A stretch of DNA of 22,214 nt from a virus, in the IMG/VR virus record IMGVR_UViG_3300048997_000485, positions 1 to 22,214 of that record; one strand, 5' to 3'. Below the pieces are notes generated by a model that saw only the letters and a program-made list of their open reading frames with translations, was not told the origin of the DNA and did not search any database. Shown here one piece after another: positions 1,954-13,886 of this stretch. The number at the start of each line of letters is the position of its first letter. Within the stretch, counting starts at the first letter, position 1. The translations under genes and the position numbers were made by a program.

Positions 1954-3509
1954 ACCTCCAGCTCTCAGTCCACGATCTGCAAGTAGCGCCCTCGACGGTG
2001 GTGATCATCGTCGGCGACGCGCTGGAGTGCCTGCGCAAGCGGCCCGCGGGATCTGTGCAGACGGTGGTGACCAGCATCCCATATTACGGCGCGCGGGACT
2101 TCAACGTTGCGCCGTCGGTCTTCGGTGGAGATCCCGCTTGCCGTCACCGCTGGCCGAAAACGGCCGTCCCCCGAAAGGCGGCGGCGTCGACGAAGCGCTC
2201 GGCACCTGCCCGTGCGCCGCGGCTGTCGAGCTTCTGCCGGCGCTGCAACGCCTGGCTCGGATGTTTCGGGCTGGAACCGACCTATCAGCTCTACATCGAT
2301 CACACGGTCGAGATTTTCCGCGAGGTGTGGCGGGTGCTGCGCGTCGACGGCACGTTGTGGCTCAACATGGGCGACGGCCACGTCACCCGCCGCGCCGGCT
2401 GGTCCGCCGCGCGCTATAAGGACGATGGCTTCGATCATCGGTTTGTCGACAAGCCGTTCGATACCATCGGGCTCGGACTGAAAGAAAAAGACCTGATGGG
2501 CATGCCTTGGCGCGTCGCGCTCGCGTTGCAGGCGGCGGGCTGGTACCTCCGGCAGAACATCGTCTGGCACAAGAAAAACCCGATGCCGGAAACGGTCTAT
2601 GACCGGCCGACCACAGCTCACGAATTTATTTTCCTGCTGGCCAAGTCCGGCGACACCTTGCTCTGGCGCCACCGCGATTCCGGGCAATGGGTCGGTTGCA
2701 AACCGCAGCCGGACTGGCGCTGGCGCAATCGAGAGAGCCGCGAGGTCACCGCGAAACCGCAGACGAGCAAGAAATGGTTCCAGTTCAACCTGTGGCGCGG
2801 CTTCGATTATTACTATGACTTTGAAGCCATCATGGAGCCGACGTCGCCGGACAGTCATGCCCGCGCAGCGCGCATTCCGCCTCCCGCGGGCTGGGATGAC
2901 ACCGCGGGCCATCACGGTTCGGTGCACCGTCAAGGCAGGCGGCAATCCTCGAAAACACAAGCGCGCGATGATCAGGGCCTGCGATCGTCCGCGCGCATGG
3001 GGCGTGCTCCGGGCTGGCGAAACCGGGATCTCGGCAGCGCGCCACCGCGGAAGAACAACACGAGCTTCGATTCTGCATTGAAGCTCGGCGACTATGGCGA
3101 CGGGCACGCCGGCACCCCCAAGCAGAACGAAAAATTCTACGCCACGATCGGCACCGGCGCGCAGCTGCCGAAGCGCAACAAGCGCAGCGTATGGTCGATC
3201 GGCAGCCAGCCCTTCAAGGATGCGCATTTCGCGACCTTCCCGCCGGCGCTGATCGAGCCGTGCATCCTGGCCGGCTGCCCGGTCGGCGGCGTGGTGCTGG
3301 ATCCGTTCGCCGGCGCCGGCACCACCGGCCTGGTTGCCGCGCTTAACGGGCGCAACGCCATCCTGATCGAGAAGAACCGCGACTATGCGGCCATCGCGCA
3401 GAAGCGGATCGCCGAGCACGGCGGCGGCTGCCTGGTGCGGCTGGTCAAGGACGCGGCGGATGATTTCGGGCTGACCCCCGCGGCAACACCGGAGCGCGCC
3501 GATGGCTGA
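1950..3509 (+). CDS. Orphan beta-class DNA methyltransferase (N4-cytosine/N6-adenine type)
   Basis: 519 aa from the ATG that overlaps the previous stop (ATGA). An earlier in-frame ATG at 1716 would lie deep inside the ATPase gene and is unlikely. Catalytic motif IV is TSIPYYG with S42-I43-P44-Y45. The SAM-binding motif I is LDPFAGAGTTG at about 450-460. Motif IV coming before motif I defines the beta class. Between them is a probable zinc site, C64-X-H66 with C96-X2-C99, as in a phage methyltransferase subfamily that I recognise by its conserved block just after it (VWRVLR, GTLWLNMGD). It transfers a methyl group from SAM to a base in a short DNA target. No restriction endonuclease is nearby, so it probably protects phage DNA or alters regulation. 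The second position of motif IV is Ile instead of the usual Pro. Confidence 0.9.
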   Translation: MNLQLSVHDLQVAPSTVVIIVGDALECLRKRPAGSVQTVVTSIPYYGARDFNVAPSVFGGDPACRHRWPKTAVPRKAAASTKRSAPARAPRLSSFCRRCNAWLGCFGLEPTYQLYIDHTVEIFREVWRVLRVDGTLWLNMGDGHVTRRAGWSAARYKDDGFDHRFVDKPFDTIGLGLKEKDLMGMPWRVALALQAAGWYLRQNIVWHKKNPMPETVYDRPTTAHEFIFLLAKSGDTLLWRHRDSGQWVGCKPQPDWRWRNRESREVTAKPQTSKKWFQFNLWRGFDYYYDFEAIMEPTSPDSHARAARIPPPAGWDDTAGHHGSVHRQGRRQSSKTQARDDQGLRSSARMGRAPGWRNRDLGSAPPRKNNTSFDSALKLGDYGDGHAGTPKQNEKFYATIGTGAQLPKRNKRSVWSIGSQPFKDAHFATFPPALIEPCILAGCPVGGVVLDPFAGAGTTGLVAALNGRNAILIEKNRDYAAIAQKRIAEHGGGCLVRLVKDAADDFGLTPAATPERADG

Positions 3510-4671
3510 CAAATCCCTGATCGAGTGGACAGATGCGACGTGGAATCCGATCCGCGCGCGCAACCTGAAGACCGGCAAGGTCGGCTGGCATTGCGAGCAC
3601 GCCACGACGGGCTGCGAGTGGTGCTACGCGGAAGGCTTCAACAAGCGGCTCGGCACCGGGCTCCCGTTCAAGCCCGGGCACCGCAAGGAGATCGAGATAT
3701 TCCTCTGCGAGGAGATGCTGACGCAGCCGCTGCGCTGGAAGAAGCCGCGGATGATCTTCCCGGGATCCATGACCGACCTGTTCGCCGACTTCGTGCGTGA
3801 CGAATGGTTGGACAAGATTTTTGCGGTGATGGCGCTGACGCCGCAGCATACGTTCCAGGTGCTGACGAAACGCGCGGCGCGGATGCGCGCATACATGACG
3901 GCTGAGGAGCGTCGCTATCGAATCGAACTGCAGATGTACGAACTTGGCGGCGACTACGACGCGCGAACGATCCCGGATGCAGACTGGCCGCTCCCCAACG
4001 TCTGGCTTGGCGTCTCGACCGAACGCCAGCCGGAGGCCAATGAACGCATTCCGGAGCTGGTGCGCACGCCGGCGGCGGTGCGTTTCATCAGCTACGAGCC
4101 GGGGCTCGGGCCGCTCGACCTCGAGTGCATTGAAGCTCCGGAGAAGGTGGAAGGCGAGCGCTGGACGTTCAACTGTCTGCAGACCGGCGACACGTACGAA
4201 CAGCACGATGATCTCGGCCATAGAAGCTCTGGCGACGGGCCATATCGCGAACGTGCCATCGACTGGGTCATCGTTGGCGGCGAAAGCGGCCGCAACGCCC
4301 GGCCTATGCATCCGAACTGGGCCCGGGAGCTGCGGGCTCAATGCAGAGACGCCGGCATGCTCGATCGCTTCTTCTTCAAGCAATGGGGCCAATGGGCGCC
4401 GGTCTGCGCGCTGCATGATGCGGCGATCGACAAGCTCTACAAGCCCGCGCCGGCGCGCCATCCAGAGGCGACGAGGCAGTGCCTGGTGCCGCAGATGGTC
4501 ATGCATGCGGACGGGACTTGTTTCACGGATGTCACCGCGCCAATGGCCTTCGTCGTGGGATCCGGCGCGATGCAGATGTTTTCTGTCGGCAAGGGTATCG
4601 CCGGGCGCCAGCTCGACGGCGTCGAATACAACGGCATGCCGGCACGGCTTACGATCGGAGCAGCCGCATGA
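3502..4671 (+). CDS. Phage Gp37/Gp68-like protein (DUF5131), three-cysteine motif
   Basis: 389 aa; the start overlaps the methyltransferase end by 8 bases. The opening IEWTDATWNP, the cysteine cluster C31-X6-C38-X2-C41 followed by YAE, and the later blocks VLTKRA, WLGVSTE, GGESG..ARPM and FFFKQWG are the hallmarks of the Gp37/Gp68 family (DUF5131, PF07505). The cluster resembles, but is not identical to, the CX3CX2C site of radical SAM enzymes, so an iron-sulphur/radical role is plausible but unproven. The family is common next to phage methyltransferases and replication genes, as here. The partner protein TcmP, often adjacent in other genomes, is not seen. The C-terminal 50 residues carry another conserved-looking segment (GIAGRQLDGVEYNGMP) frequent in this family. 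Confidence 0.88.
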   Translation: MADKSLIEWTDATWNPIRARNLKTGKVGWHCEHATTGCEWCYAEGFNKRLGTGLPFKPGHRKEIEIFLCEEMLTQPLRWKKPRMIFPGSMTDLFADFVRDEWLDKIFAVMALTPQHTFQVLTKRAARMRAYMTAEERRYRIELQMYELGGDYDARTIPDADWPLPNVWLGVSTERQPEANERIPELVRTPAAVRFISYEPGLGPLDLECIEAPEKVEGERWTFNCLQTGDTYEQHDDLGHRSSGDGPYRERAIDWVIVGGESGRNARPMHPNWARELRAQCRDAGMLDRFFFKQWGQWAPVCALHDAAIDKLYKPAPARHPEATRQCLVPQMVMHADGTCFTDVTAPMAFVVGSGAMQMFSVGKGIAGRQLDGVEYNGMPARLTIGAAA

Positions 4672-10618: not shown

Positions 10619-10768
10619 ATGACGCTGAAGACCGGCTTTGCACTGCTGACCGGCCTGACGCTTGGGATGTGCCTCGCAGCCGAATTGCAGGCAAAAGCCT
10701 ATGCCCGCCAGTTTACGGCGCTGCATATCGCGACCTGCACCAAGGCCGACAAGGCCAGTGTCCGATAA
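10619..10768 (+). CDS. 49-residue protein with a membrane/signal segment, ending in a recombination-like site
   Basis: Starts at ATG 10619 with GGGAG about 12 bases upstream. Residues 1-25 are a Lys-containing start followed by a hydrophobic run (TGFALLTGLTLGMCLAAEL), suggesting a signal or membrane anchor. The rest is short and polar (TKADKASVR). The stop codon TAA is the last three bases of the left arm of the 28-bp site at 10758-10785. It could be a small membrane protein, or a gene cut short when the site inserted. No family recognised. Confidence 0.5.
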   Translation: MTLKTGFALLTGLTLGMCLAAELQAKAYARQFTALHIATCTKADKASVR

Positions 10769-10785
10769 GCGCCCTTATCGGACAC
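10758..10785. repeat. dif-like 28-bp palindromic site, left copy
   Basis: Arms GTGTCCGATAA (10758-10768) and TTATCGGACAC (10775-10785) are perfect reverse complements, separated by the 6-base centre GCGCCC. CAG follows. This 11-6-11 layout with inner ATAA and TTAT is the same as in XerCD dif sites. A second copy lies at 13663-13690. Convergent genes end on either side, so a bidirectional terminator is the main alternative, but there is no T-tract. Confidence 0.75.
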
Positions 10786-10795
10786 CAGACCCGGC

Positions 10796-11125: not shown

Positions 11126-11335
11126 TTAGGCCTCAGGATGATGCACCAGGACCGTGTCAGGCCGGCGCTCGCATTTTTCGAACGAACCATCTTCCAGCCC
11201 GGCTTGGATATAGACATCGAAGACCGTCGTGCGATCGTCTTCATACGTTTTTCCGGCCTCGATCCTGAACATGCAATATTCCAGGTCAATGCTCTTTGAC
11301 TGCTTTGCCAGCACGACGGTGTTTCGGCGCTTCAT
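11126..11335 (-). CDS. Small protein, unknown function (leftward)
   Basis: 69 aa, ATG at 11335, with AGGG further upstream on the minus strand than usual. It is a beta-rich, mixed-charge protein (YCMFRIEAGKTYEDDRTTVFDVYIQAGLEDG). It ends 31 bases before the next leftward gene, which probably shares its transcript. Its start is divergent from the recombinase, with only 32 bases between, so the two promoters must overlap and may be co-regulated. No recognised family. Confidence 0.6.
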   Translation of the reverse strand: MKRRNTVVLAKQSKSIDLEYCMFRIEAGKTYEDDRTTVFDVYIQAGLEDGSFEKCERRPDTVLVHHPEA

Positions 11336-11367: not shown

Positions 11368-12300
11368 ATGTCAGAATCGCAAGCCCTAGTCGACCCGCGG
11401 GCATCGGTTCGGGCTTATCTCGAGGCGGAGAAAGCCGCCGGCACGCGGCGGGCCTATAAATCGGACTGGGCCGACTTTTGCACCTGGTGCGATACTGTAA
11501 ATGTTTACAGTATGCCGGCCGAACCGATGACGGTGGCCCGCTATCTGGCCCAGCTCGCCGACAGCGGCAAGAAGGCCGCGACAATCCAGCGCCGCGTGGC
11601 GTCGATCCGGGCCGCGCACCGGGCTGCGGGGCATGAGCCGCCCACCAACGCCGAGGGCGTCAAGGGCACGATGCGCGGGATCCGGCGCACGCTGGGCACC
11701 CGCAAGGTCAAGAAGGCGCCGGCGACGGCGGAGATCATCATGAGCCTGCAGGCGGTGTTTCCGGACACGCTTGCAGGCAAGCGCGACCGGGCGATCGTGC
11801 TGCTGGGCTTTGCCGCGGCGCTGCGCCGTTCCGAGCTGGTCGCGCTGGACGTCGCCGATGTCGAATGGCGGCGCAAAGGCATCCTGCTGCACAAGCGGCG
11901 GTCCAAGACCGACCAGGAGGGCAAGGGCGCGACGATTCCGATACCTCGCGGCGAGGCGCTGAAGCCGGTCGACGCGCTCGATGCCTGGCTGAAGGCTTCC
12001 GGGATCTGCGAAGGGGCCCTCTTCCGCGCCGTGCACAGATCCGGCGCGCTGCTGAACAAAAGGCTTTCAGATCGCGACGTCGCGCGCATCGTCAAACGTT
12101 CCGTGGCGGCCGCCGGCATCGACGCGAAGGTTTTCTCAGGACACTCGCTGCGCGCCGGCTTCGTCACCTCGGCGCTCGATGCCGGCGAAGACCCGATGAA
12201 GATCATGCCGATCACCGGCCACAAGAAGGTCGACACGCTGCAGGAATACGACCGGCGCGAGAACGATTTCGACAGTCATGCGGGCAAGGGATTTCTCTAA
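11368..12300 (+). CDS. Tyrosine recombinase (phage integrase/XerC-like family)
   Basis: 310 aa. A SAM-like core-binding N-terminal domain (about 15-110, with TRRAYKSDWADFCTWC and ATIQRRVASIRAAHRAAG) is followed by the catalytic domain. Active-site residues are visible: R153 in LRRSEL, K in the KTDQEGKGA turn, H259-X2-R262 in SGHSLRAGF, H285 in ITGHKK and nucleophile Y294 in EYDRR. The protein ends with DSHAGKGFL. It cuts and rejoins two DNA sites through a phosphotyrosine link. The dif-like sites on both sides of the module are obvious candidate substrates. The next gene starts at TAATG, so it leads an operon. Its place between replication and packaging genes is unusual for a prophage integrase. 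A role as the phage integrase or in dimer resolution remains possible. Confidence 0.93.
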   Translation: MSESQALVDPRASVRAYLEAEKAAGTRRAYKSDWADFCTWCDTVNVYSMPAEPMTVARYLAQLADSGKKAATIQRRVASIRAAHRAAGHEPPTNAEGVKGTMRGIRRTLGTRKVKKAPATAEIIMSLQAVFPDTLAGKRDRAIVLLGFAAALRRSELVALDVADVEWRRKGILLHKRRSKTDQEGKGATIPIPRGEALKPVDALDAWLKASGICEGALFRAVHRSGALLNKRLSDRDVARIVKRSVAAAGIDAKVFSGHSLRAGFVTSALDAGEDPMKIMPITGHKKVDTLQEYDRRENDFDSHAGKGFL

Positions 12301-12518
12301 TGTGCGTTTTGACTGCTTTGAGCTGGGAAGGTGAGTTGCCGCTGCCGGGCCACTACGTGAAAGCCCGCAGAGGCCGTATCGCATTTCTAATTCTCGAAGT
12401 TCTCCGGCCCAACAAACCAAACGCCAAGTATGCAGCGCGGCTCCAATGTGCACGTATGAACCCTTCTTACCTTCATCGTGACGCCGTAGTTCATCCTTGG
12501 CATTGGGCGAGACGATGA
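12300..12518 (+). CDS. Small basic protein, unknown function
   Basis: 72 aa, ATG overlapping the recombinase stop (TAATG). Residues about 18-72: YVKARRGRIAFLILEVLRP, AARLQCARMNP, AVVHPWHWARR. The pattern of a (K/R)(R)GR-AFLI-EV core and an ending with VHPW.W resembles a small family I have seen in rhizobial prophages as 'hypothetical'. It is basic and beta-rich, maybe nucleic-acid binding. It overlaps the next gene by ATGA. It belongs to the recombinase operon. Confidence 0.7.
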   Translation: MCVLTALSWEGELPLPGHYVKARRGRIAFLILEVLRPNKPNAKYAARLQCARMNPSYLHRDAVVHPWHWARR

Positions 12519-12733
12519 AGCGATTGCTCTGCAGGATATTCGGCCATCGTCGGCAGTCGAGCAATTGGTACCGCCTCCCGCCATTTATCTCCCGCCTTTA
12601 CAGTGGCACCCGTTGGTTGAGCAACACTCGGTGCGCTCGCTGTGGCAAGCGGTTGGAGGTGCATCGCGTTCACCGCAGCCGCAGACCTTCGGCTTCCGAT
12701 GTCCGAAGCCACGCCGGCGGGCGCTTTTTGTAG
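12515..12733 (+). CDS. Small cysteine-containing protein with shared C-terminal tail
   Basis: 72 aa, ATGA-coupled. The N-terminus MKRLLCRIFGHRR with a later TRCARCGKRL gives a Cys-His-Cys-X2-Cys pattern that may bind zinc. Small phage proteins of this type (K-R-L-C-x-I-x-G-H opening) are known but uncharacterised. The C-terminus RSHAGGRFL is nearly the same as that of the gene at 12993-13361 and like that of the recombinase. The similarity extends past the stop codon. Function unknown. Confidence 0.68.
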   Translation: MKRLLCRIFGHRRQSSNWYRLPPFISRLYSGTRWLSNTRCARCGKRLEVHRVHRSRRPSASDVRSHAGGRFL

Positions 12734-12739
12734 GGGTAC
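12709..12739 (+). repeat. Cassette-end repeat, first copy
   Basis: CCACGCCGGCGG (12709-12720), four variable bases, TTTTTGTAG (12725-12733, with the stop codon), then GGGGTAC. It matches 13337-13368 at 12 and 9 consecutive bases plus most of the following seven. It includes the palindrome CGCCGGCG. It lies at the end of a gene that is otherwise unrelated to the second one. Confidence 0.6.
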
Positions 12740-12744
12740 ATTGA

Positions 12745-12993
12745 ATGTCCGAGGTTAACAGCACGTCCGACGCTCGCGTCCTGAACAACACGGTTCGTCA
12801 TCAATACCGTGTTCTCAGCGACAGCGAGAAGGCGCTCATGTTGAGCATCAAGGATGCCGGCCAGGGGTTCTTGGAGCTGCTCGAGGCCGTAGCTGCGCAA
12901 ACCCGAGGTTTTGGGGGAAGCCGCGAACTGTCGATCGCCAAGACGAAGATCGAAGAAGCCGTCATGTGGGCGGTGAAGCACGTCACGAGCTAA
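12745..12993 (+). CDS. acb2: Acb2/Tad1-type hairpin protein (cyclic-nucleotide sponge, anti-CBASS)
   Basis: 82 aa. Polar N-terminus, then VRHQYRVLSDSEKALMLSIKDAG, a helix, GFLELLEAV, a loop, and SRELSIAKTKIEEAVMWAVKHVT. This is the Acb2/Tad1 hairpin domain pattern. Known members (Acb2 of Pseudomonas phages, Tad1) form hexamers that bind and sequester cyclic dinucleotides/trinucleotides made by CBASS, or the signal of Thoeris. Y21 and K36 have the same spacing (15) as the ligand residues Y11 and K26 that I recall for PaMx33 Acb2. Start: ATG 12745, 11 bases after the previous stop, with GGGG nearby. It is followed by a zinc-ribbon gene at TAATG. Family call strong; the bound ligand is not predictable from this. 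Confidence 0.85.
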   Translation: MSEVNSTSDARVLNNTVRHQYRVLSDSEKALMLSIKDAGQGFLELLEAVAAQTRGFGGSRELSIAKTKIEEAVMWAVKHVTS

Positions 12994-13361
12994 TGGCCGA
13001 TCTTTCCAAGGCCCTGGTCTACAATCCGTTCGAGGGGGACTTCGGCGACCAAGGCGATCGCGAGTTGCGCGACAAGATCGTCAAGTTCCGCAAGGCCGGC
13101 GGTTGTCACCTGTGCGGCAACGATGTGAAGCCCGGGACATTGGGCCGAAGCCTGACAATGCTTTGGGCAACGGACGGTGTGATGACCTACCGGTATTGTA
13201 CCGAGTGCACGGAAGCGCAGGCGAGCAGCTGGACTGATGACGGTAGAGCTCTTGATGTGCGATACGCGGAGAGGTCGCGGTCTACCGCCCGGCGCGCTCG
13301 TTCTGGTGTCCGGAATACGACCGGGGCGTTCGACACCCACGCCGGCGGAAAGTTTTTGTAG
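12993..13361 (+). CDS. Zinc-ribbon protein translated with acb2
   Basis: 122 aa, ATG overlapping the acb2 stop (TAATG). MADLSKALVYNPFEGDFGD opens the protein, then HLCGNDVKPG (C-X2-C type start: CHLC) and YRYCTECTEA (C-X2-C) form a four-cysteine zinc ribbon around residues 37-72, then SSWTDDG. This layout occurs as a small conserved phage protein often located near Acb2-like genes. The last 30 residues are a basic, Arg/Ser-rich extension ending FDTHAGGKFL, a tail shared with two other genes of the module. It may be a partner of Acb2 or an independent anti-host factor; unknown. Confidence 0.78.
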   Translation: MADLSKALVYNPFEGDFGDQGDRELRDKIVKFRKAGGCHLCGNDVKPGTLGRSLTMLWATDGVMTYRYCTECTEAQASSWTDDGRALDVRYAERSRSTARRARSGVRNTTGAFDTHAGGKFL

Positions 13362-13368
13362 AGGCTAC
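13337..13368 (+). repeat. Cassette-end repeat, second copy
   Basis: CCACGCCGGCGG (13337-13348), AAAG, TTTTTGTAG (13353-13361), then AGGCTAC. It overlaps the stop codons of two convergent genes; GTAG and CTAC form an inverted pair over three bases. Matches the copy at 12709-12739. Confidence 0.6.
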
Positions 13369-13622
13369 TGATCGACGTCGTCAAAGATCGAACGATTACC
13401 GTGTTCATCGACCATCATTCCCTCAGGCGTGAATTTGGGCCGCCCGTTAGGATGAAGCACTTCTGCGGTAAGCGCCGCCCTGATTTCCGTTCGATAGAGG
13501 GGTTGCGCCAAATGGCTTCTTACCAGCTCAGCGATCGCGGCAGGCTCGAGCCCCGGCGTTTCGGACAGACTGTCCACGTATTCTTGTAGATATAGGCGAC
13601 ACTGGTCGTATCGAGTCATCAC
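13365..13622 (-). CDS. Small protein, unknown function (leftward)
   Basis: 85 aa, ATG at 13622 with CCGGAG about 9 bases upstream on the minus strand. Mostly helical and acidic: RYDQCRLYLQEYVDSLS, PAAIAELVRSHLAQPL, TEIRAALTAEVLHP, then a polar C-terminus (GNRSIFDDVDQ). It converges on the zinc-ribbon gene with only 3 bases between stops. The rightward open frame overlapping it (13401-13589) is rejected. Function unknown. Confidence 0.66.
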   Translation of the reverse strand: MMTRYDQCRLYLQEYVDSLSETPGLEPAAIAELVRSHLAQPLYRTEIRAALTAEVLHPNGRPKFTPEGMMVDEHGNRSIFDDVDQ

Positions 13623-13662
13623 GGCGCTCCGGCCGACATCCTAGCACAAAAGTTCAGCCCTG

Positions 13663-13690
13663 GTGTCCGATAACCGCCGTTAACGGACAC
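13663..13690. repeat. dif-like 28-bp palindromic site, right copy
   Basis: Arms GTGTCCGATAA (13663-13673) and TTAACGGACAC (13680-13690) with the 6-base centre CCGCCG. The left arm is identical to that of 10758-10785; the right arm has one change (T to A). CCTG/CAGG extend the palindrome to 13659-13694. The stop codon of the leftward gene that starts at 13886 lies in the right arm. Confidence 0.75.
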
Positions 13691-13886
13691 CAGGATTTAC
13701 TCGCGCTTCTTCATGCATGGGACGAAACTGGCCATCATTGTTCTCGTCCTCGAACAACTCACCCGCTTTGATCGGTTCGGCCGCAACTCCGACATAACCT
13801 TTTTGAGCGGCAAGATAGAACTTACCGTCGTCCCCACGGTAAACGGCCTGGCCAACCTCGATCTTTTCGCCCGCGATACCCTTCAT
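13680..13886 (-). CDS. Small phage protein, capsid-fibre/cement-like composition, unknown function
   Basis: 68 aa from ATG 13886 with GGGAG 9-14 bases upstream on the minus strand; a GTG at 13910 is the alternative start. The body, GEKIEVGQAVYRGDDGKFYLAAQ-GYVGVAAEPIKAGELFEDENNDGQF, reads like a short beta domain seen in phage capsid decoration or DUF2190-type proteins ('G..V..GQAVY...DGK...A'). The last codons (A-R-V-N-P-G-V-R) and stop are inside the palindromic site, so the tail may have been replaced by site insertion. Function unproven. Confidence 0.6.
   Translation of the reverse strand: MKGIAGEKIEVGQAVYRGDDGKFYLAAQKGYVGVAAEPIKAGELFEDENNDGQFRPMHEEARVNPGVR

Follow-up and report, generated by a model that had tools for sequence, protein, structure and literature searches.

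Copies of a recombinase gene 3' end behind accessory genes in a phage genome and in other recombinase loci

The recombinase locus and its shared C-terminal tails

The DNA analyzed here, referred to as the window, comprises all 22,214 nucleotides (nt) of IMG/VR virus record IMGVR_UViG_3300048997_000485, in which the gene of a Cre/Xer-like tyrosine recombinase is followed by a series of small accessory (cargo) genes. A first-pass annotation had reported that the recombinase and two unrelated cargo proteins, the Cys protein and a zinc-ribbon protein, share a C-terminal HAG..FL tail, and this was borne out at positions 12277-12300 (DSHAGKGFL, recombinase), 12710-12733 (RSHAGGRFL, Cys protein), and 13338-13361 (DTHAGGKFL, zinc-ribbon protein). 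The DNA match reported between the two cargo tails was likewise recovered (28 nt at 82% identity). In the 22-kb window the tail pattern occurs at exactly these three places (shuffles: mean 0.35, never 3), a count that shows only the absence of further copies, the pattern having been written from the three themselves. Of 18,903 open reading frames (ORFs) of at least 60 amino acids (aa) in recombinase-bearing loci, 3 that the recombinase filter did not recognize have the HAG..FL ending, and these may be recombinases that it missed. As described below, the cargo tails are DNA of the recombinase 3' end, a DNA scar and not a conserved protein tag, and we consider it likely that they are relics of this end, displaced by successive insertions behind the recombinase within an accessory-gene slot.

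In the zinc-ribbon gene, homology to recombinase DNA begins out of frame at GGAATACGACCGGGGCG (13312), where GGAATACGACCGGCGCG of the recombinase gene (12243-12259) reappears at 13312-13328; after an indel of 7 nt the gene contains TTCGACACCCACGCCGGCGG, a stretch of 20 nt identical to the recombinase 3' end of the related locus L004. This copy (relic 2) was matched to L004 independently by blastn (E = 2e-4) and to a hidden Markov model (HMM) of recombinase ends with an E-value of 2.5e-5 in 2.8 Mb. The copy closing the Cys gene (relic 1) shares 22/27 nt with relic 2 and 19/27 with the L004 recombinase end, and both relics have GTAG.GG.TAC behind the stop codon. The present recombinase gene is identical to that of L004 at 54 of the 60 nt just before the tail (up to TTCGAC) and at 17 of the 27 nt within it, while relic 2 agrees with the L004 tail at 20/27 positions, the first 14 exactly, and is the better match to L004 of the two. 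This pattern would fit an insertion that brought in a new recombinase end and moved the former one away. The cargo tails do resemble each other (22/27) more than they resemble the present recombinase tail (14/27 and 17/27), as might be expected if they arose by chance or by simple duplication among the cargo genes, without any relation to the recombinase. Such an origin is nevertheless extremely improbable, being contradicted by the out-of-frame match to recombinase DNA, by the L004 and family HMM matches of relic 2, and by the recurrence of tail copies in other phages. A 12-nt match (AGGCTACTGAT) between the flank of relic 2 and the relic flanks of locus L186 is too short to build on.

The cargo tail is regarded as a scar because the zinc-ribbon homology extends out of frame and all seven homologues of the zinc-ribbon protein that were examined (L037-L041, L584, and L585) lack the tail. 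Similarity to these relatives ends near residue 99, after which reading continues into relic 2, and the best homologue, L037, stops where the window gene reads on. Two homologues of the Cys protein were found, both weak and partial, with the tail in neither. The annotation had also offered the tail as a protein tag for a common partner or protease, and a docking peptide binding the cargo to the recombinase would be a related possibility. The tail is in frame on both window cargo genes, and in the recombinase itself G306, F309, and L310 do not vary among 14 recombinases compared, at identities as low as 43%, and the last 16 residues are predicted to be disordered in the monomer (predicted local distance difference test score, pLDDT, under 50). 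We have nonetheless rejected a tag as very unlikely, in view of the tail-less homologues, of copies in loci L215 and L283 that end no evident cargo gene, and of a Methylobacterium cargo family in which the tail may be fused, unfused, or absent. The features of the locus are listed in Table 1.

Table 1. Features at the recombinase locus, with positions numbered as in the window
Feature	Position	Strand	Remarks
dif/lox-like site 1 (cagtgtCCGATAAgcgcccTTATCGGacacca)	10756..10787	+	upstream of recombinase; same orientation as site 2
Cre/Xer-like tyrosine recombinase, 310 aa	11368..12300	+	PF00589, PF02899; phmmer to Cre E 9e-13, XerD E 8e-10
Present recombinase 3' end, 27 nt including stop	12274..12300	+	17/27 to L004; preceding 60 nt 54/60 identical
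ORF2, 72 aa, unknown family	12300..12518	+	TAATG overlap with recombinase stop; TGATG overlap with Cys start
Cys protein, 72 aa, fused to tail RSHAGGRFL	12515..12733	+	two weak partial homologues, both without tail
Relic 1, recombinase 3' end closing the Cys gene	12707..12733	+	followed by possible Shine-Dalgarno sequence and acb2 start
Acb2/Tad1 family gene, 82 aa	12745..12993	+	PF24729 E 5e-18; likely cyclic-nucleotide sponge
Zinc-ribbon protein, 122 aa	12993..13361	+	phrog_19515; seven homologues without tail
Relic 2, probable displaced recombinase 3' end, L004-like	13312..13361	+	out of frame before 7-nt indel, in frame after
g5, convergent gene	13365..13622	-	ends 4 nt behind relic 2
dif/lox-like site 2 (tggtgtCCGATAAccgccgTTAACGGacacca)	13661..13692	+	repeats site 1 directly; lies 300 nt downstream of relic 2

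The recombinase and a candidate cognate site

The recombinase combines a PF00589 catalytic domain with a PF02899 SAM-like N-terminal domain, as expected for the Cre/Xer group, and its solved relatives are Cre and XerD chains. It scores below the NCBIfam cut-offs for XerC, XerD, and integron integrases; the two integron integrase models gave 38 and 23 bits against cut-offs of 265 and 435, which places it outside the IntI family. Most of the relatives examined have HAGxxFL (or HSGxxFL) as their C-terminus. Synonymous positions in the tail codons are no more conserved than in the rest of the gene, so that the motif in the recombinase is a protein feature; a DNA role, for which the first-pass annotation had proposed a check of synonymous sites, finds no support there, and a family-wide DNA constraint on the tail was rejected. 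In Cre, the C-terminal segment docks on the neighboring subunit, and by analogy the tail of the window recombinase perhaps does the same, with which the disorder predicted for its last 16 residues in the monomer would agree.

In the virus records the recombinase gene is internal, and 3 of the 12 examined show another integrase-like match close to the end of the contig. The internal enzyme is thus not necessarily the prophage integrase, and we discarded that assignment on these grounds. Related recombinases are also found on small plasmids (4.6-14 kb), which suggests that multimer resolution may be their basic job. On two such plasmids of acetic acid bacteria, pGXY050 and Apa386Bp4 (L581 and L582), a gene annotated as the antitoxin HigA runs in the opposite direction and overlaps the recombinase gene at its 3' end. 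In the window, an imperfect 18-nt direct repeat (16/18; 11290-11307 and 12303-12320) flanks the recombinase gene, possibly by chance.

A palindrome, TCCGATAA-N6-TTATCGGA, with a core similar to dif was found near the recombinase in 40 of 155 loci, compared with 1/155 shuffled regions and 5/97 regions further away, and it is a likely candidate for the cognate site of the recombinase. The exact site was found in six IMG/VR contigs, all of which carry a recombinase of the window's kind. No dif-like site was scored in terminase relatives that lack the recombinase and have enough sequence; in L291 a dif-like site is present and the contig ends before the place of a recombinase. We also considered a module that enters a pre-existing empty site in recombinase-free phages, and found none, the exact site being confined to recombinase contigs. 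Two dif-like sites in the same orientation enclose the recombinase and cargo of the window, and such pairs also surround the recombinase in L005, L206, and L218, while the pairs in L220 and L265 have the opposite orientation relative to the recombinase. The relic of L215 lies 268 nt from the site, similar to relic 2 of the window, and in insert-free relatives the recombinase itself ends 255 nt (L004), 348 nt (L007), or 199 nt (L206) from it. Relic 2 thus resembles, in its distance to the dif-like site, the recombinase end of relatives without an insert.

Recombinase ends in other loci

Such scars are also present elsewhere in the Alphaproteobacteria. In a survey of 194 recombinase loci, the extra tail copies detected by the HMM lie downstream of a recombinase and have its orientation. 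The exceptions are an inverted copy in L186, a second recombinase arranged in tandem in L203, and fragments that are in fact recombinase genes. In L215 the last 33 nt of the recombinase gene recur exactly behind a 1.7-kb insert, with no evident gene ending there, and L283 has a 49-nt copy 0.3 kb downstream that does not end an evident cargo gene. In L175, L186, L187, and L201 the relic and the complete gene that precedes it are of different recombinase types. The Methylobacterium phage regions L175 and L187 each contain a recombinase of another type, followed by a ParA-like gene and a relic of an L018-type recombinase. When closely related recombinases with unrelated downstream DNA were compared, the last 30 nt differed more than the preceding 60 (11 disjoint pairs, p = 0.007), whereas no excess tail difference was observed for pairs with related downstream DNA (17 disjoint pairs).

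Tail copies are present in 62 of 111 Methylobacterium genomes. The fetched loci, a non-random sample, contain 132 distinct tails, of which 54 terminate open frames 250 codons or more in length; the other 78 are mostly short relics, together with some decayed genes. With one representative per upstream flank, we obtained 47 relics with lengths of 39-307 nt, and 17 of these measure 100-135 nt; relics above 320 nt, few among the 132 tails, were left out of this set. Several relics stand in tandem, 0.2-1.3 kb apart. Their left borders vary by tens of nt (-105 to -135, plus other classes), a spread that led us to reject a single fixed crossover nucleotide. The relics decay, since they carry more amino-acid changes than full genes do (ratio of amino-acid-changing to synonymous changes, N/S, 0.66-0.73 compared with 0.23-0.25). 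We rejected the possibility that they are cycling, fully selected gene ends, N/S being intermediate and internal stops occurring in 6 of 58 relics.

A cargo family of ~95 aa and unknown function has members downstream of a full recombinase (L378), of relics (L448 and L430), and of an unrelated recombinase (L438), and a tail follows each of these copies; the tails are 85-95% identical and the genes 67-78%. Among the 30 loci of this family, 15 have a tail upstream of the gene and 11 have one downstream. Three loci (L551, L552, and L553) show an in-frame fusion, others have the tail unfused, and the rest lack it, so that fusion to the tail is incidental. This multi-copy family (L551-L580, Methylobacterium) often begins directly behind a recombinase end, and may be a partner gene of the recombinase.

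These data bear on how the copies arose. One possibility is that the promoter or translation start signals used by the next gene lie within the end of the recombinase gene, and that this end travels with the next gene by ordinary recombination, without action of the recombinase. The relic stop overlaps the next start in L283, L175, and L187, a Shine-Dalgarno sequence and ATG follow the relic in L186 and L457, and the ~95-aa gene begins directly behind the tail in at least 12 of the 30 loci. The promoter part of this proposal is putative, however, and the gene behind relic 2 in the window is convergent; we hold the explanation to be a reasonable one, at somewhat less than even probability. Alternatively, the recombinase 3' end could be an attC-like site, the recombinase inserting small circular cassettes, with a usable end at the cassette front, behind its own gene. 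The cassette-like order and sizes (0.43 and 0.63 kb in the window, and the spacing of the Methylobacterium relics), the exact direct repeat around the L215 insert, the occurrence of the same gene and tail in several contexts with the tails better conserved than the gene, and the clustering of relic lengths would all be in keeping with this. Against it stand the separate dif-like site that accompanies the recombinase and to which the tail bears no visible resemblance, the varying left borders, the ordinary synonymous conservation of the tail, and the decay of the relics, and an attC-like role therefore seems unlikely. Of the recombination end proposed in the first-pass annotation, behind which cassettes could be added, one part thus holds: the tails are recombinase 3'-end DNA, copies lie behind recombinases, and genes have apparently been added there. 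The other part, the tail as the recombination site of the recombinase, is unlikely: the candidate site is the separate dif-like sequence, the left borders of the relics are spread, and the synonymous positions of the recombinase tail show no unusual conservation.

A model for insertion behind the recombinase

We propose that an internal Cre/Xer-like recombinase heads an accessory-gene slot ending at or near a dif-like site, and that genes were inserted at the junction directly behind the recombinase at least twice. At each insertion the incoming DNA would supply a new recombinase end, pushing the old 3' end to the far side of the insert, where it would adjoin the gene that had previously followed the recombinase. 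The ancestor may have had an L004-like order, with the recombinase, about 0.3 kb, and the dif-like site. The acb2 and zinc-ribbon genes would have entered first, leaving the relic in the zinc-ribbon gene, and ORF2 and the Cys gene later, nearest the recombinase, leaving the relic in the Cys gene; the youngest insertions would thus lie nearest the recombinase, each having left the former end behind. The Cys and zinc-ribbon genes, which have no stop codon of their own, read into the relic and would so have acquired an accidental HAGxxFL tail. Relics may persist because the start or ribosome-binding site of the next gene overlaps the old recombinase stop. The insertions may have been catalyzed by the recombinase at the 3' end of its own gene, in the manner of an integron, or have occurred by ordinary recombination with relics kept for their start signals, or both.

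Several observations weigh against this model. Relic 1 is short (27 nt) and weak when taken alone (HMM E 1.4), so that its assignment depends on its similarity to relic 2. The model does not account for the reading frame of the window relics, which in both is that of the recombinase (about 1 in 9 by chance). The divergence of recombinase tails is concentrated in two variable codons and the last Leu codon, and part of it may be protein drift. Recombinase-proximal duplicates are rare in the window's own clade, and no relative with the same cargo and without the insertion was found. Finally, what the relics of Methylobacterium show is that recombinase ends stay behind; they do not prove by which process.

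Cargo and neighboring genes

ORF2, which was absent from the first-pass annotation, overlaps both the recombinase and the Cys gene, and a search for relatives found none. The gene between the two tailed cargo genes matches the Acb2/Tad1 hairpin domain (PF24729) with 65.5 bits against a cut-off of 27, and likely encodes an anti-CBASS/Thoeris sponge. In other viral contigs with acb2 relatives no recombinase end was found upstream of acb2, and acb2 was dismissed as a regular follower of the recombinase end. A fragment of g5 is present behind the recombinase in L008. Elsewhere in the window, positions 1-1953 encode a HerA/DUF87-like ATPase whose C-terminal part contains Myb-like domains, which is unusual for a phage protein, and positions 3502-4671 a DUF5131 protein (PF07505, E 4e-77), often annotated as a Gp37/Gp68-like phage protein.

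Relation to known systems and significance

The locus shares features with several known systems. As in genomic islands and phages that enter the 3' ends of tRNA and other genes, the incoming DNA would restore the gene end and the old end would form a direct repeat on the far side, as the exact 33-nt repeat of L215 does. Here, in contrast, the recombinase gene itself is interrupted, the inserts (0.2-1.7 kb) carry no recombinase, and relic length varies. Phage P1 similarly has a Cre recombinase encoded within the phage genome with a palindromic site, lox, close to the gene, and several relatives of the window recombinase have a separate integrase-like gene near the contig end. The site described here is dif-like, however, and the accessory slot and displaced gene ends are features of the present locus; we know of no displaced gene ends at P1 cre. 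In integrons (IntI, attI, and attC), a tyrosine recombinase also heads an array of small genes, apparently with the youngest nearest and a repeat behind the cargo genes, and the arrays and gene order described here would fit small-gene addition beside an integrase. Unlike in integrons, the repeat consists of coding sequence from the 3' end of the recombinase gene, family scores do not place the enzyme with IntI, and neither attI nor attC was identified.

In the dif (pdif) modules of Acinetobacter plasmids, accessory genes are bounded by dif-like sites of the ATAA-N6-TTAT type (PMC6449649, PMC13141974), as the recombinase and cargo are in the window. The present block differs from these modules in belonging to a phage, in containing the recombinase gene within its boundaries, and in having tail relics as a separate feature, and its movement as a unit at these sites, through XerC/XerD, would be hypothetical; an empty or shuffled counterpart of it was looked for and not found. 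In a limited and partial search of the literature, a weak guide to absence, no description of displaced recombinase ends as marks of cassettes was found, and the nearest published systems in that search were the dif modules (PMC6449649, PMC13141974) and integrons.

Recombinase ends between accessory genes would provide a readable record of gene capture by phages, marking past insertions and, if the proposed order holds, their sequence. The stretch behind internal phage recombinases is a place to seek accessory and anti-defence genes, here represented by an Acb2/Tad1 homologue, and a cognate site can be proposed for a recombinase family that is widespread in phages and plasmids. It is doubtful, at present, that alphaproteobacterial phages and prophages possess a non-integron cassette system in which the 3' end of a Cre/Xer-like recombinase gene is both the insertion point and an attC-like repeat, so that every gene taken up would supply the recombinase with a new C-terminus while the previous one stayed in place; such a system would store accessory genes, here including an anti-defence gene. 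If the recombinase proves to catalyze the insertions, the locus would represent a cassette system outside integrons.

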